DNA from: Candidatus Desantisiibacteriota bacterium
Lineage (GTDB): Bacteria > JACRDZ01
Direction: 5' to 3'
DNA length: 13,769 nucleotides
Assembly (NCBI GenBank): GCA_016209155.1
Contig: JACQWU010000206.1
Coordinates: forward strand, 1-13,769
The translations under genes and the position numbers were made by a program. Below are positions 637 through 11,199 of this stretch, in pieces (position 1 is the stretch's first letter; every line of letters begins with the position of its first letter). The notes under the pieces were generated by a model. It searched no databases, was not told the origin of the DNA, and saw nothing but the letters and a program-made list of their open reading frames with translations.

Positions 637-690
637 GTCTAACAAATCACTGCACCTGATTTTGCCTGCGGCAAAACAGGTGAGTTCAAA
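637..690 (+). repeat. attC site of the first cassette
   Basis: R'' is GTCTAAC (637-643) and the R'-like end is GTTCAAA (684-690), a weak match to GTTRRRY. Between them is a strong stem, CACCTG then TTTTGCC, loop TGC, then GGCAAAA and CAGGTG, with one unpaired A. This 54-bp site belongs to neither of the two main attC families of the array. Its right arm contains AGGTGAG five bases before the ATG of the next gene, so the site also appears to supply the ribosome binding site. Confidence 0.65.
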
Positions 691-1529
691 TGTTCGATCA
701 AGAAATAATAAAAAAAATGATAAAGCTTATTGATCTGATAAGTTTAGCTGGTATAACGATGGGAAAATTCAAAATCCATTGTGCTACGGGGTCAAATCCC
801 GCTCCACTTGAGGCGTTTTATGACGACAAATTTAAAAAGTGGCAAGAATATCAAAATAACCGCAACTTCAAATGCGACCATATCATATCCTTGATCCACC
901 TTGGCGGTTCTGATTGGCTCTTTGCTGGGATTTACAAAGTCAACGGTATTCGGCCAAAATCAAACAATGAAAAATCATGGTTCGAGTATTCGACATCCGA
1001 ACTCCCCGGTTTAGATCATCTCACCGGACGTGCCATAATAGTATTCAACAAGAATTTTAGAGCCTCTTATCTGATAGGTGACCGATATGCTTCCCTATTG
1101 TTGGTAAAAGAGATCAAACCGGAACGGCAGTCAATCGGGGACTTTCCAGGGTACAACAAAGTCTGTTTGCCGCTTCGAGGACTCAAGACAGTTGTCCGTC
1201 AGCAACTTCAAAGCTGGAAAACGGCATTGAGCAACATCGCTGGTGTTTATCTAATCTCTGATACAATGACCGGAAAACAATACGTTGGTAGCGCATACGG
1301 CGACATTGGAATCTGGCAAAGGTGGTGTGCCTATGCTACCACCGGCCACGGAGGCAACAAGGAGCTAAGAGATTTACTGAGAGAAAAAGGCGATGATTAC
1401 GCGCTTAATTTTCTGTTTACAATTCTTGAGGTTATTGACCTTAATGCAAGCAAAGAATATATCACCGCTCGCGAATGCCATTGGAAGGATGCTTTACTGA
1501 CAAGGCAATATGGATATAACAGCAACTAA
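690..1529 (+). CDS. GIY-YIG nuclease-family protein with an unknown N-terminal domain
   Basis: The 279-residue product has two parts. Residues about 1-175 form a domain I do not recognise, with features such as FKCDHIISLIHLGGSDWLFAG. Residues about 183-279 look like a GIY-YIG nuclease domain: GVY at 185-187, YVG at 198-200, an arginine at 211 (IWQRW), a candidate metal-binding glutamate at 262 (ARECHW) and the family-typical YGYN near the end (N277). GIY-YIG domains cut DNA with one divalent metal ion, so the expected role is endonuclease, perhaps targeted by the N-terminal part. The start at 690 is supported by AGGTGAG at 678-684 inside the preceding attC. It is a single-gene cassette. A homing, restriction or anti-phage role is possible but unproven. 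Confidence 0.75.
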   Translation: MFDQEIIKKMIKLIDLISLAGITMGKFKIHCATGSNPAPLEAFYDDKFKKWQEYQNNRNFKCDHIISLIHLGGSDWLFAGIYKVNGIRPKSNNEKSWFEYSTSELPGLDHLTGRAIIVFNKNFRASYLIGDRYASLLLVKEIKPERQSIGDFPGYNKVCLPLRGLKTVVRQQLQSWKTALSNIAGVYLISDTMTGKQYVGSAYGDIGIWQRWCAYATTGHGGNKELRDLLREKGDDYALNFLFTILEVIDLNASKEYITARECHWKDALLTRQYGYNSN

Positions 1530-2674: not shown

Positions 2675-2748
2675 CTATAACAAAGCAATCCAGGTAATTT
2701 TATTACGCGGCAAGCCGCTCCATAAAATACCTGATTTTTGTGTTATCT
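2675..2748 (+). repeat. attC site, CAGGTAATTTTAT family
   Basis: R'' is CTATAAC (2675-2681) and R' is GTTATCT (2742-2748). The arms match the family copy at 1545, again with the extra A on the left arm. The apex differs slightly (ACGCGGCAAGCCGC, one A fewer in the loop). An in-frame GTG within the site (2740) could extend the next gene upstream, but a better start exists at 2782. Confidence 0.85.
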
Positions 2749-2781
2749 GAAAATAATAAAACCATTATTAGGAGGTTACAA

Positions 2782-4389
2782 ATGGGATCCTTATACTTGA
2801 ATAGATTATCACAAAAAGAAAGAGAAGCTTTAATCGAAAAATTATTCCAATCTCAAAAAGAAATTTGCTTCATTTGCGAAAAAACAATTGACCTTAAACT
2901 TCACAAAGATGCTCTTGATATTGACCATATTGTTCCTACAAAATTAAACGGGAAGGATGACCCCGTTAATTTTGCGTTAACACATTCAAGTTGTAACAGA
3001 TCAAAACAAGCGTCCGACCTTAATATAGCAAGGATACTTAATCACTTTGATGAGCTTAAAAATAATATTTCCTCTGAAAACCGCGGTCCCAATTTAGACG
3101 ATATTTTGAAATCAAAGAGCGGCTCACAATACGAAATAATATTTAACAAACAAAATGGGAAGATTAAATATTCTCTCCCCGAAATTGGCAATAATCAAAT
3201 CTTTGATTTGCCTGTTTATATAGATGCACTCAGTGGGTTTGAATACTTTTTTACAAATCTTCCAATAGAGTATCTTTATCATGATGACAAAATTAATCCG
3301 AGGTCAATTGGAGAGAACATATCTAAGTTAATTCACGAGTTTTATTTAAAAAGGCCACAATTACACATTTCTCTGGCTTGGATCGACCTTAACTGTCCGA
3401 AAACCAAAGTAAAAGTTTTTGACGGGCAACATAAAGCGTCGGCTCAAATATTGCTCGGAGTAAAACAATTGCCAGTTAGAATTTTTATTAATCCCAATCC
3501 TGATATTTTATTAACGACCAATACAAACGCTGGAACGACTTTAAGACAGGTAGCATTTGATAAATCTGTTCAACGTCACTTAGGTAGCGCTTTGTATCTT
3601 GATAGAATTGACAGATATAAAACTGACTGCAATTTGTCTAATGATAATTATAACTTTTCAGAAAGGGATTTATTGAAGTACTTTAAAGGTGAGTCAAGAG
3701 AAATGAAACGATATATTTTGGATGCAGTTAGAGATTCAATTACCCACAATCCCGAAAACAAATTAAAAGATTATATTGATTTTGGCGGGAGAGGTAAAGA
3801 TAGACCCCTATCATACAGCACCATAGAGAAAACATTTTACTCTTTCTTTATCTTTCAGGATGTTTTAGAAACACCTATCAATTACCGGTTAGAAGAAGGT
3901 GGAAATCCGAGAGAATTAGAGAAAGAACAAATCCTTGAGTTAATGAACTTAATTGCAGAAGAAATATTTATTGGTAAATTTGACGGCGATATTGGCACAA
4001 GTCAGATTGAAAGTAAGATTCAAAAAGGAGAGAACTTGCCGCTACCTCATATACGGGCGTTTAGAATGAGCAAAGAAGAAATTCTCTACAACTGGCTCAG
4101 ATATATTGAACAAATAATAAAAAACTATTTCATTATGCAGGGCAAACCAATTCAAGAAAGCAAATTATTCCAATATAAATTTCCAGAGCCTTTATGGGAG
4201 AGGATCAAAATATTCATAAAAAATATTGCTAATCTGCCAGTCTGGATAAATAAAGAACTATCCTCAACTGTTTTCGGTGGTAAACAGGTTAATGATTATT
4301 GGCAAACAATTTTTGAAACGGGAAAATCATCGCAAGGATTACAAGTATTAGCGGAACCAATTGATTTAATGAAAATGATTAAAGATTAA
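2782..4389 (+). CDS. HNH endonuclease fused to a DGQHR/DndB-like domain
   Basis: From the ATG at 2782, preceded by AGGAGG at 2770-2775, the product has 535 residues; the GTG at 2740 inside attC is less likely. Residues about 27-80 form an HNH nuclease: CFIC (29-32), DIDHIVP with D48-H49, and HSSCNRSK (68-75), giving paired cysteines for zinc plus the His and Asn of the motif. Around 214-218 is DGQHK, followed by QILLGVKQLPVRIFI and an NTNAGTTL stretch. This resembles the DGQHR motif of DndB-like and ParB-related proteins. The C-terminal half (about 290-535) is mostly helical and unrecognised. It is the largest gene here and is alone in its cassette. A nuclease that senses modified or foreign DNA is a reasonable but untested inference. 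Confidence 0.75.
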   Translation: MGSLYLNRLSQKEREALIEKLFQSQKEICFICEKTIDLKLHKDALDIDHIVPTKLNGKDDPVNFALTHSSCNRSKQASDLNIARILNHFDELKNNISSENRGPNLDDILKSKSGSQYEIIFNKQNGKIKYSLPEIGNNQIFDLPVYIDALSGFEYFFTNLPIEYLYHDDKINPRSIGENISKLIHEFYLKRPQLHISLAWIDLNCPKTKVKVFDGQHKASAQILLGVKQLPVRIFINPNPDILLTTNTNAGTTLRQVAFDKSVQRHLGSALYLDRIDRYKTDCNLSNDNYNFSERDLLKYFKGESREMKRYILDAVRDSITHNPENKLKDYIDFGGRGKDRPLSYSTIEKTFYSFFIFQDVLETPINYRLEEGGNPRELEKEQILELMNLIAEEIFIGKFDGDIGTSQIESKIQKGENLPLPHIRAFRMSKEEILYNWLRYIEQIIKNYFIMQGKPIQESKLFQYKFPEPLWERIKIFIKNIANLPVWINKELSSTVFGGKQVNDYWQTIFETGKSSQGLQVLAEPIDLMKMIKD

Positions 4390-4395
4390 AAAAAC

Positions 4396-4454
4396 AGATA
4401 ACTTGTTAATATAGCCGACGGCAAAAAGCGCCGCGGCTGATTATAATGTTATCT
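4396..4454 (+). repeat. attC site, 59 bp, unique type
   Basis: R'' AGATAAC (4396-4402) and R' GTTATCT (4448-4454) are exact reverse complements. Inside, AGCCG-A-CGGC pairs with GCCG-C-GGCT around an AAAAAGC loop. The site resembles neither main family, so this cassette probably came from a different source than its neighbours. Confidence 0.8.
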
Positions 4455-4862: not shown

Positions 4863-4939
4863 AGATAACAAATCGCTTCAGCTAACTGGTGAGCACGTTC
4901 TATGAAGCTCACCCCAGTAGCTGAGCTCTGGTGTTAGAT
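4863..4939 (+). repeat. attC site, CAGCTAACTGG family
   Basis: R'' is AGATAAC (4863-4869) and R' is GTTAGAT (4933-4939). CAGCTA-A-CTGG pairs with CCAG-TAGCTG with one extra A, and GGTGAGC pairs with GCTCACC around a short loop. Close copies are at 8576, 9358 and 11788. The sites at 5562 and 10076 share only the outer parts. Confidence 0.9.
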
Positions 4940-6775: not shown

Positions 6776-7042
6776 ATGATTACTCAAGAAGATAAAAATA
6801 AAATTAGCGAGTTGGCAAAAAAATATCATATTTCTCAAGTGCTTTTATTTGGATCTGCGCTCAAAAATGACAGCTTCAATGATATTGACCTAGGTATTAA
6901 GGGAATAAACCCAGAATTGTTTTTTAAATTCTATGGCGAACTGCTTTTTGCCCTTTCTAAATCTGTGGATTTGGTGGACCTGGATATAGACAATCCCTTT
7001 ATCACCTTTGTACAGCAGGAAGGGATAAAAATTTATGGCTGA
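6776..7042 (+). CDS. MNT-type nucleotidyltransferase antitoxin, module 1
   Basis: The 88-residue product has the minimal nucleotidyltransferase fold. G26-S27 (LLFGSALK) is followed after eight residues by D36-I-D38, and a third acidic strand (VDLVDLD) comes later. In characterised MntA-type antitoxins the motif is usually GSx10DxD, so this copy has a spacer two residues shorter. Known family members transfer AMP to a tyrosine of the partner HEPN toxin and so silence it. The gene overlaps the HEPN gene by eight bases. No ribosome binding site is visible and the -10 box is six bases upstream, so leaderless translation is likely. Confidence 0.8.
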   Translation: MITQEDKNKISELAKKYHISQVLLFGSALKNDSFNDIDLGIKGINPELFFKFYGELLFALSKSVDLVDLDIDNPFITFVQQEGIKIYG

Positions 7043-7457
7043 TTTGCAGCAGCGAATAAAAATCGAAATTTATAATATTACCGAAGCCTTAGAAGAAATC
7101 AATAATATAAAAGACAAAAAGAATAAAACAAAAATAGAACTGGCCGGTATTGCTACTTATCTGCATAATTTTTACAGCGGTATCGAAAATATACTTAAGC
7201 AAATATTGGCAGAAAAAGGCATTAAGATTGCAAAAACTGAATTCTGGCATAAAACCCTGCTAAATATTTCCGTAGAAAATAAAATCATATCCTTGGAATT
7301 CAAGGACGCCCTATCAGATTATTTAGCCTTCCGTCATTTTTTTGTTCACTCCTACGGTTTCATGCTGGACGAACGCCGATTGTTGTCTCTCACAAAAAAT
7401 GCTGAAAATATATTTCACGAATTTAAAGAAAATATTAAACAATATTTAACAATTTAA
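7035..7457 (+). CDS. HEPN-domain (HepT-like) toxin, module 1
   Basis: The 140-residue helical product contains RHFFVHSYGF, an exact R-x4-H-x-Y motif (R100, H105, Y107). In HepT-type toxins the Arg and His form the ribonuclease site and the Tyr is the residue modified by the MntA antitoxin. The gene overlaps the preceding antitoxin gene by eight bases, so translation is probably coupled. The cassette's attC follows at once (7459) but is cut by a REP-like element. Module 1 is the only TA pair here whose attC is broken. Confidence 0.82.
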   Translation: MADLQQRIKIEIYNITEALEEINNIKDKKNKTKIELAGIATYLHNFYSGIENILKQILAEKGIKIAKTEFWHKTLLNISVENKIISLEFKDALSDYLAFRHFFVHSYGFMLDERRLLSLTKNAENIFHEFKENIKQYLTI

Positions 7458-7940: not shown

Positions 7941-8249
7941 ATGATTAAAGATAAAAAGGAAATTTTAAATCTCATAAAAAATAACCAAAATGACATTGTG
8001 TCTTTCGGCGTAAAACAACTTGGTCTTTTTGGCTCGTTCGTTAAGGGAAAACAAAACCCTGAAAGCGATATTGATTTACTTGTTGAATTCTACCCTGATA
8101 AAAAAAACTTTGCTAATTTCATTCACTTTTCCTTTTTACTTGAAACATTATTAAAACATCGCATAGAATTAGTAACTTCCGAATCATTAAGCCCTTATAT
8201 TAAACCTAATATATTACGAGAGGTCGAATATGTCATTTCCCGGGCATGA
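7941..8249 (+). CDS. MNT-type nucleotidyltransferase antitoxin, module 2
   Basis: The 102-residue product has LGLFGSFVKG with G31-S32, then ten residues and D43-I-D45, an exact GSx10DxD motif. The third acidic position is a glutamate (HRIELVT), which the nucleotidyltransferase fold tolerates. In this family the enzyme adds AMP to the HEPN toxin. Its gene overlaps the toxin gene by 20 bases, which suggests coupled translation. A strong promoter sits directly upstream with no room for a leader or ribosome binding site. The cassette begins after the attC at 7806 and ends with the one at 8576. Confidence 0.87.
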   Translation: MIKDKKEILNLIKNNQNDIVSFGVKQLGLFGSFVKGKQNPESDIDLLVEFYPDKKNFANFIHFSFLLETLLKHRIELVTSESLSPYIKPNILREVEYVISRA

Positions 8250-8574
8250 ATATCTTCTCCATATATTGGATGAAACAAAATATATTTTAAGTCAAACAAA
8301 AGTATTGACTAAAGAAGATTTTATGCAGAACGAAACACTCCAAAGAGCGTTTGTCCGTAGTATAGAAATTATCGGAGAGGCTACAAAAAATACCCCTGAC
8401 AATTTAAAACAAAAACATCCTTATATAGAATGGCGAGCTATGGCTGGCATGCGGGATATATTAATACATGATTACTTCGGCATAGATTATGATATTGTAT
8501 GGGATGTAGTTATTAACAAAATCCCCTCTCTCCATAAAGAAATCGAAAAAATTATTCAGGAAGAAAATAAATAA
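8230..8574 (+). CDS. HEPN-domain (DUF86/HepT-like) toxin, module 2
   Basis: The 114-residue product is a DUF86-type HEPN protein with an FVRSIEIIGEATK helix and MRDILIHDYFG, an exact R-x4-H-x-Y motif (R75, H80, Y82). The family is a ribonuclease toxin controlled by the adjacent nucleotidyltransferase. The ATG at 8230 is preceded by GAGGT (8220-8224) within the antitoxin gene. An attC starts two bases after the stop codon. It is closer in type to module 3 than to module 1. Confidence 0.87.
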   Translation: MSFPGHEYLLHILDETKYILSQTKVLTKEDFMQNETLQRAFVRSIEIIGEATKNTPDNLKQKHPYIEWRAMAGMRDILIHDYFGIDYDIVWDVVINKIPSLHKEIEKIIQEENK

Positions 8575-8575
8575 C

Positions 8576-8652
8576 TTCTAACAAATCGCTTCAGCTAACT
8601 GGTGGGCACGCTCAATGAAGCACATCCCAGTAGCTGAGCTCCGGCGTTAGGA
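8576..8652 (+). repeat. attC site, CAGCTAACTGG family
   Basis: R'' is TTCTAAC (8576-8582) and R' is GTTAGGA (8646-8652). The outer arms are as in the site at 4863; the inner arm is altered (GGTGGGC against GCACATCCC). R' plus the next base gives AGGAG, eight bases before the ATG at 8662, so the site supplies the ribosome binding site of the next gene. Confidence 0.9.
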
Positions 8653-8661
8653 GCTAAATAA

Positions 8662-8871
8662 ATGAACTGGATATTAATAATCGTTGGAGTTGTAGCAAGA
8701 TTTCTCATAATACAACGATGGTTTTGGATAATAGTATTATTTTTTGGCGGACTCGCATCTCTATTCGCCATGATAGCCAGCATTATTCATTTTCAGATTC
8801 TTGGTGCATTATGTTTTTTTGTTTTAATGGCAATTTGCTGGGGCATACTTAGCTTAATCACTGAAGAATAG
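8662..8871 (+). CDS. Small membrane protein, 69 residues
   Basis: The product is almost wholly hydrophobic, with likely helices at about 3-18, 20-43 and 46-66, ending LITEE. No family is recognised. The ribosome binding site AGGAG (8649-8653) overlaps R' of the preceding attC. The gene has no attC of its own: the HicBA module starts 58 bases after its stop. Either an attC was lost between them or the two travel as one cassette. Small membrane proteins beside toxin modules are sometimes passengers, so no link in function is claimed. Confidence 0.6.
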   Translation: MNWILIIVGVVARFLIIQRWFWIIVLFFGGLASLFAMIASIIHFQILGALCFFVLMAICWGILSLITEE

Positions 8872-10568: not shown

Positions 10569-10871
10569 ATGCTGGATATAAAACCTTATGAGGAACAAAT
10601 AAAAAAAATTTGCATTGAATTACAACTTAAACGATTGGATTTGTTCGGCTCTGCAACAACTGAAAATTTTGGGTCAAATAGTGATGTTGATATAATAGTT
10701 GAATTCAAGAAGGATGTTGATCTCAACCGATTTGACAGCTATTTTCTATTAAAAACCCATTTGCAAAACATTTTTCATCGTCCAATTGATATAATAATTG
10801 ATGGAACAATTAAAAACCCTTATCTCAAAGAAAATATTTCCCAGACAAGGAAGAATATATATGCCTCATGA
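10569..10871 (+). CDS. MNT-type nucleotidyltransferase antitoxin, module 3
   Basis: The 100-residue product has LDLFGSATTENFG with G27-S28, ten residues, then D39-V-D41, an exact GSx10DxD motif, and a third acidic strand, RPIDIIIDG. It should transfer AMP to the HEPN partner, as described for the family. A good ribosome binding site and its own promoter precede it. It overlaps the toxin gene by 11 bases, counting the toxin from the ATG at 10861. Confidence 0.87.
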   Translation: MLDIKPYEEQIKKICIELQLKRLDLFGSATTENFGSNSDVDIIVEFKKDVDLNRFDSYFLLKTHLQNIFHRPIDIIIDGTIKNPYLKENISQTRKNIYAS

Positions 10872-11199
10872 AATCAAGAAATATCTTTTTGATATTCAGC
10901 AAGCTATTGAACAAATAGAAACATTCCTCAAGGATAAAACCTATGAACACTTTATCGTTGAATCCATCCTGCAATCTGCAGTAGAAAGGCAATTTGAAAT
11001 AATTGGAGAAGCCTTATATAGAATCAGGAAAATTGATGAAACTTATTTATCTAAAATTGCTGATGCGCACAAAATAATTGGCTTTAGAAACGTAATTAGC
11101 CATGGCTATGATATTATTGATTCTAATATAATTTGGGACGCCGTAAAATTAAACCTGCCAAAACTAAAAAATGAAATTAATAATTTAATGAGAATCTAA
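10861..11199 (+). CDS. HEPN-domain (DUF86/HepT-like) toxin, module 3
   Basis: From the ATG at 10861 the product has 112 residues and begins MPHEIKKYLFDIQQ. An in-frame ATG at 10798 would add 21 residues that overlap the antitoxin gene by a further 63 bases, which is unlikely; AAGGAAG (10847-10853) fits the later start. The motif FRNVISHGYD is an exact R-x4-H-x-Y (R76, H81, Y83), giving the ribonuclease residues and the tyrosine target of the antitoxin. The stop codon lies inside R'' of the next attC. Confidence 0.87.
   Translation: MPHEIKKYLFDIQQAIEQIETFLKDKTYEHFIVESILQSAVERQFEIIGEALYRIRKIDETYLSKIADAHKIIGFRNVISHGYDIIDSNIIWDAVKLNLPKLKNEINNLMRI

Follow-up and report, generated by a model that had tools for sequence, protein, structure and literature searches.

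GmrSD, BrxU, and SspE (DUF262 plus DUF1524) each combine, in one protein encoded at defense loci, a ParB/sulfiredoxin (ParB/Srx)-type domain bearing a DGQ(Q/H)(R/K) motif with an HNH-type nuclease. In SspE, the DGQQR NTPase licenses the HNH nuclease (PMC13251355), and GmrSD/BrxU provides a second analogy for a nuclease that is gated by NTP and responds to DNA modification (PMC10952713). In the work of Machnicka and colleagues, GmrS (DUF262) is given a ParB/Srx fold and found to resemble the DGQHR domain, for which three motif positions are named, QR, DGQHR, and FxxxN (PMC4619093). Two other kinds of described loci are relevant. ARMADA systems are built from a YprA helicase, a BrxHII-like helicase, and a PglX-like methyltransferase; neither an HNH nor a ParB component is mentioned in the text of the preprint (PMC12458937). 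Integron cassettes are a known reservoir of anti-phage genes, which account for 16 of 179 in V. cholerae (PMC12409362).

The gene discussed here comes from a 13,769-nucleotide stretch, which we call the window in its entirety, of the genome of a groundwater bacterium (Candidatus Desantisiibacteriota, contig JACQWU010000206.1). It is a cassette gene whose product is probably a mobile nuclease that acts against phages and belongs to no described family, a reading that draws on the placement of some of its relatives inside phage defense operons adjoining DNA methyltransferases. Its product has the two kinds of domain seen in GmrSD, BrxU, and SspE, but in reversed order, with the HNH domain N-terminal and of the PF01844/Cas9 type, and its motif is DGQHK. 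The motif thus ends in K, whereas the R is essential in SspE; in contrast to GmrSD and SspE, neither DUF262 nor DUF1524 is recognized in it by sequence. With the DndB/DGQHR family (PF14072, TIGR03187) it shares DGQH(R/K), a probable ParB/Srx fold, and alignment of the motif by profile comparison, whereas DndB is without an HNH domain and the window protein is without a family-model match and without dnd genes nearby. The link to ARMADA is through two distant homologs found inside ARMADA-like operons. As in the defense cassettes of chromosomal integrons, a single gene with a ribosome-binding site and attC sits in an array with other defense-like genes; unlike the known examples, this one has no match to a PADLOC family outside its generic HNH part.

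Results

The HNH–ParB/Srx (DGQHK) fusion gene is an open frame on the forward strand (2782..4389) that encodes 535 amino acids from an ATG codon. An AGGAGG ribosome site stands just 5′ of this ATG (2770..2777, forward strand) and is also kept in the copy from a Nitrospirae genome. An alternative GTG start at 2740 would give a protein of 549 amino acids; we favor the ATG at 2782, given the good ribosome site and homologs that start at the same residues.

The original prediction had described the gene as a stand-alone cassette, and this holds in a stronger sense than was intended, since the gene proves to be bounded by integron attC sites, which were no part of that description. The cassette is 1706 bp long (2743..4448, forward strand) and consists of one gene and its own attC between two G^TT recombination points, which were deduced from the positions of the GTTATC R′ boxes (2742 and 4448). 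The attC of the HNH cassette (AGATAAC ... GTTATCT; 4396..4454, forward strand) starts 7 bases past the stop codon, and folding of its bottom strand gives -15 kcal/mol, with a z of -5.16 (0 of 200 shuffles). The attC of the preceding cassette lies at 2675..2748 and that of the following cassette at 4863..4939, both on the forward strand. Families of intergenic repeats of 60 to 80 bases throughout the window show the attC structure, in which complementary arms accompany boxes of the AAC type (R″) and of the GTTA type (R′). A pattern covering part of these repeats occurs six times in the window and not once in 200 shuffles, and the genome's other contigs all lack it. Among the proteins of the genome is an integron integrase, IntI (TIGR02249, 405.7 bits against a cutoff of 265). 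By its sequence context, that is, its own attC, the flanking attC sites, and an IntI in the genome, though on another contig, the HNH gene is an integron gene cassette.

The attC of this cassette belongs to a sequence family distinct from those of the rest of the array, which suggests an origin in another integron. At least three attC sequence families are present in the one array (compare 4396-4454, 2675-2748, and 4863-4939), suggesting that its cassettes were collected from several integrons. The similarity to the Nitrospirae copy, 88.6% at the nucleotide level, is confined to the ribosome site and the gene. A near-identical array is found in a public Omnitrophota assembly (L005), with 99.8 to 100% identity over most of the window, which makes Omnitrophota the probable phylum of the host. 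Positions 8501-8788, including an attC site, are missing from that array, possibly because a cassette was deleted or because the assemblies differ. Our literature search returned no integron study on Omnitrophota.

Several neighbors in the array also resemble defense genes. A homolog of UzuA (Uzume) is encoded at 690..1529 on the forward strand (PADLOC PDLC03973, E = 1.4e-66), and a gene for a trypsin-like protease at 1630-2457 matches PADLOC PDC-S45 (E = 2.5e-17); in L005 the protease gene is longer by about 110 bases, which lie toward its 3′ end (at window 2451/2452), and its open reading frame is longer. Three adjacent nucleotidyltransferase (MNT)/HEPN-like pairs, at 6776-7457, 7941-8574, and 10569-11199, are probably toxin–antitoxin cassettes; their MNT members match PADLOC PDC-S09. 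No Rfam family was found in the window.

Cassettes distant from the integron promoter often go unexpressed, and no promoter-like signal above chance was found around the HNH gene. The gene might therefore be a silent passenger with no function in its host. We consider this very improbable. A second assembly of the species has the HNH cassette without any change, and, judged by substitution rates, the gene is under strong purifying selection relative to its nearest relative, the 93% identical Nitrospirae copy (dN 0.037, dS 0.647, dN/dS about 0.06).

At the N terminus, residues 29-76 (2866..3009, forward strand) form an HNH domain, which matches PF01844 with E = 1.9e-8 and 34.7 bits, above the curated cutoff of 21.4. 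Its core residues, D48-H49, N63, and N72, are invariant across nine homologs, and C29/C32 and H68/C71 may be zinc ligands. In an AlphaFold model built from seven homologs (pLDDT 66.8 on average, and 70 to 92 for most of residues 1-245), residues 10-92 superpose on Cas9 HNH domains with Z scores of up to 7.7; Cas9, IscB, and PtuB models match more weakly and are centered on the same N-terminal stretch. The intact HNH motif claimed from the letters alone is thus borne out by Pfam, and structure prediction, named beforehand as the check for a nuclease fold, returned one of the Cas9 HNH type.

The original prediction had placed DGQHK at residue 214 and likened the region to the DGQHR domain of DndB-type proteins. 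The motif is where it was said to be, at residues 214-218 (3421-3435), followed by LxxxN at 243-247. DGQHK is invariant in all nine homologs, at identities down to 23%, and so it is no chance pentapeptide. The likeness to a DGQHR domain stands at the level of fold. Residues 149-250 of the model (3226..3531, forward strand) match the ParB-like protein PadC (Z 8.4 over 96 residues, root mean square deviation 2.5 Å), the pNOB8-like ParB (Z 7.8), sulfiredoxin with ATP (3cyi, Z 7.3), and ParB with a CTP analog (7bnr, Z 7.3). These are middling matches (Z 7 to 8.4; Foldseek E about 0.01), yet ParB and sulfiredoxin occupy the best rows, and we accept, on the strength of the model, that the approximate region 149-250 adopts a ParB/Srx fold. 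DGQHK should lie near the sulfiredoxin signature motif, with the register inferred from the end points of the superposition of model residues 149-250 on sulfiredoxin 35-132. DndB, SspE, and BrxU structures are absent among the fold matches listed, which excludes nothing.

At the level of sequence models, the likeness did not hold. Pfam, NCBIfam, and PADLOC models recognize nothing after the HNH domain; the DndB/DGQHR models PF14072 and TIGR03187 gave no match at E values up to 10 (Pfam, NCBIfam), and neither the DUF262 nor the DUF1524 model matches the protein. Kinship with DndB is for this reason not established, and membership in DUF262 is likewise unproven. In hhalign comparisons with five DndB-family proteins, DGQHK does fall on DGQHR, with a pairwise E of 0.0026 and a probability of only 11.6. 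The comparison with seven DUF262 proteins is weak (E 0.024) and covers only the segment after the motif, placing NTNAGTTL on INSxGVxL. In our own reading of the alignment, the counterparts of QR, DGQHR, and FxxxN are NPR (172-174), DGQHK (214-218), and LLTTN (243-247), each one residue off.

The remaining C-terminal region, residues 262-535 (3565..4386, forward strand), is all helical in a separate AlphaFold model; these 274 residues folded alone give a helical domain with a pLDDT of 75.4 and a pTM of 0.78. No clear structural counterpart was found in the PDB, where the helical matches were weak (best Z 4.4).

The full-length relatives number eight and come from a range of bacteria and one phage. 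They come from metagenome-assembled genomes of Nitrospirae (93% identity to the window protein), Chloracidobacterium (75%), Chloroflexi (67%), and Betaproteobacteria (50%), from genomes G102 (68%) and G274 (distant, 23%), from the 102-kb IMG/VR contig 3300048599_000897 (49%), and from a phage contig that also carries genes for terminase and portal (L020:4274-5893, 61%). The distribution is sparse, with 3 of 386 sampled genomes positive, the window's own among them; plasmid and phage record collections gave no match by tblastn, and no further member appeared when the groups around G274 and G102 were searched. Weak matches L003 and L004, from the first genome sample, are not relatives, the latter being antisense to a UvrB-like helicase gene, and viral match L011 was set aside as a short HNH only.

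On the phage contig, the homolog is directly upstream of the terminase genes, and a resolvase-like gene lies upstream of the homolog. Together with several copies that resemble lone insertions, this position would fit a phage-derived endonuclease of the homing or packaging type that spreads selfishly, its ParB/Srx domain serving in DNA binding or regulation. We give that explanation little credence. Typical homing HNH enzymes do not resemble a 535-amino-acid protein whose second and third domains are conserved; homologs are also found inside multigene defense operons, and the copy in the window comes with an attC of its own.

The original prediction had noted that no dnd or modification gene adjoins the window gene, and this is correct within the window; dnd genes are likewise lacking among the relatives' neighbors examined. 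It had likened the domain to that of DndB-type proteins, which are linked to phosphorothioate modification; the association seen among the relatives is a different one. Four relatives adjoin DNA methyltransferases, and two of these four are inside ARMADA-like operons. In G274, the order is DRT genes, a DruE/YprA-like helicase (1751 amino acids, E 1e-88), a DpdE/DrmD helicase (E 2e-226), a DrmMI-like methyltransferase (E 3e-68), the HNH–DGQH gene, and a gene for 294 amino acids, an order that agrees with ARMADA type I as the preprint presents it (PMC12458937). On the IMG/VR contig, it is DrmD (helicase, E 3e-183), a DrmMI/type IIG methyltransferase, a gene for 186 amino acids, DUF932, HNH–DGQH, Mrr_N, a DruE-like helicase (E 2e-103), and PDC-M41A. 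The other two cases are the acidobacterial copy, divergently oriented from a type IIG enzyme (E 1e-298), and the Chloroflexi copy, which begins 64 bp past a type II methyltransferase. That Chloroflexi methyltransferase (L007:6545-7936) has one in-frame TAA, the mark of an inactivated gene or a sequence error. The betaproteobacterial copy, 73% identical to the IMG/VR copy, is likewise followed by a similar Mrr_N gene, and no recognizable methyltransferase precedes it. A remnant of an L010-type methyltransferase ahead of the L008 copy was considered; tblastn found none, and a short C-terminal resemblance was not counted.

With four relatives adjoining methyltransferases and two of them in ARMADA-like operons, a restriction effector tied to methyltransferases is a more likely role for the family than one tied to phosphorothioate modification. 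Since methyltransferases are common in defense islands, the adjacency may be partly chance. No methyltransferase stands beside the window, Nitrospirae, G102, or phage copies, and no ARMADA genes are beside the window copy. It could then be that the protein is a stand-alone type IV (modification-dependent) enzyme, like GmrSD, that works without a partner on modified phage DNA, and that its methyltransferase neighbors elsewhere reflect only the clustering of defense genes. The lone copies in the window, Nitrospirae, and G102 are consistent with this, as is the presence of the same two kinds of domain in GmrSD/BrxU. However, the G274 and IMG/VR homologs, only 23% identical to each other, are both in ARMADA-like operons, and an association by chance would rarely be kept over such divergence; we regard the partnerless type IV reading as unlikely. 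Judged from gene order at these two loci, the ARMADA-like operons around such distant members are the strongest functional clue.

As to the rest of the host genome, which was covered by single-family searches, the DndB profile found nothing. Three GmrSD_N (DUF262) proteins are encoded on contigs C305, C350, and C71, and contigs C305 and C89 have weak matches to the DrmMI methyltransferase model.

Discussion

We lean toward the view, held with measured confidence and by analogy with SspE and GmrSD, that the window gene encodes an NTP-gated, modification-aware HNH restriction effector, with the domain order reversed from GmrSD/SspE, mobilized as a stand-alone cassette. We imagine that the ParB/Srx domain, its pocket built around DGQHK, would bind and probably hydrolyze an NTP, and that this step would license nicking or cleavage of DNA by the N-terminal HNH domain, which is of the Cas9 type. 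Whether the HNH domain cuts would depend on how the DNA is modified. In the relatives, self DNA may be marked by the adjoining methyltransferase (DrmMI/PglX-like, type IIG, or type II). In the window, the gene would have become detached and been captured as a one-gene integron cassette, so that its product might act in a type IV-like manner on modified invader DNA or in partnership with a methyltransferase elsewhere in the host.

More tentatively, and as a proposal that we hold with appreciably less assurance, the undescribed HNH–ParB/Srx family may provide an interchangeable nuclease for ARMADA-like and other methyltransferase-based defenses, and may also travel as a lone integron cassette that gives one-gene, NTP-gated, modification-sensing immunity. 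If so, the family would be a reversed-order counterpart to the NTP-gated HNH effectors of the GmrSD/SspE type, and it would tie such effectors to ARMADA, where the preprint text reports no HNH component. It would also offer, from a phylum that has received little study, a clear case of a defense effector that left its operon and now moves as a single cassette.
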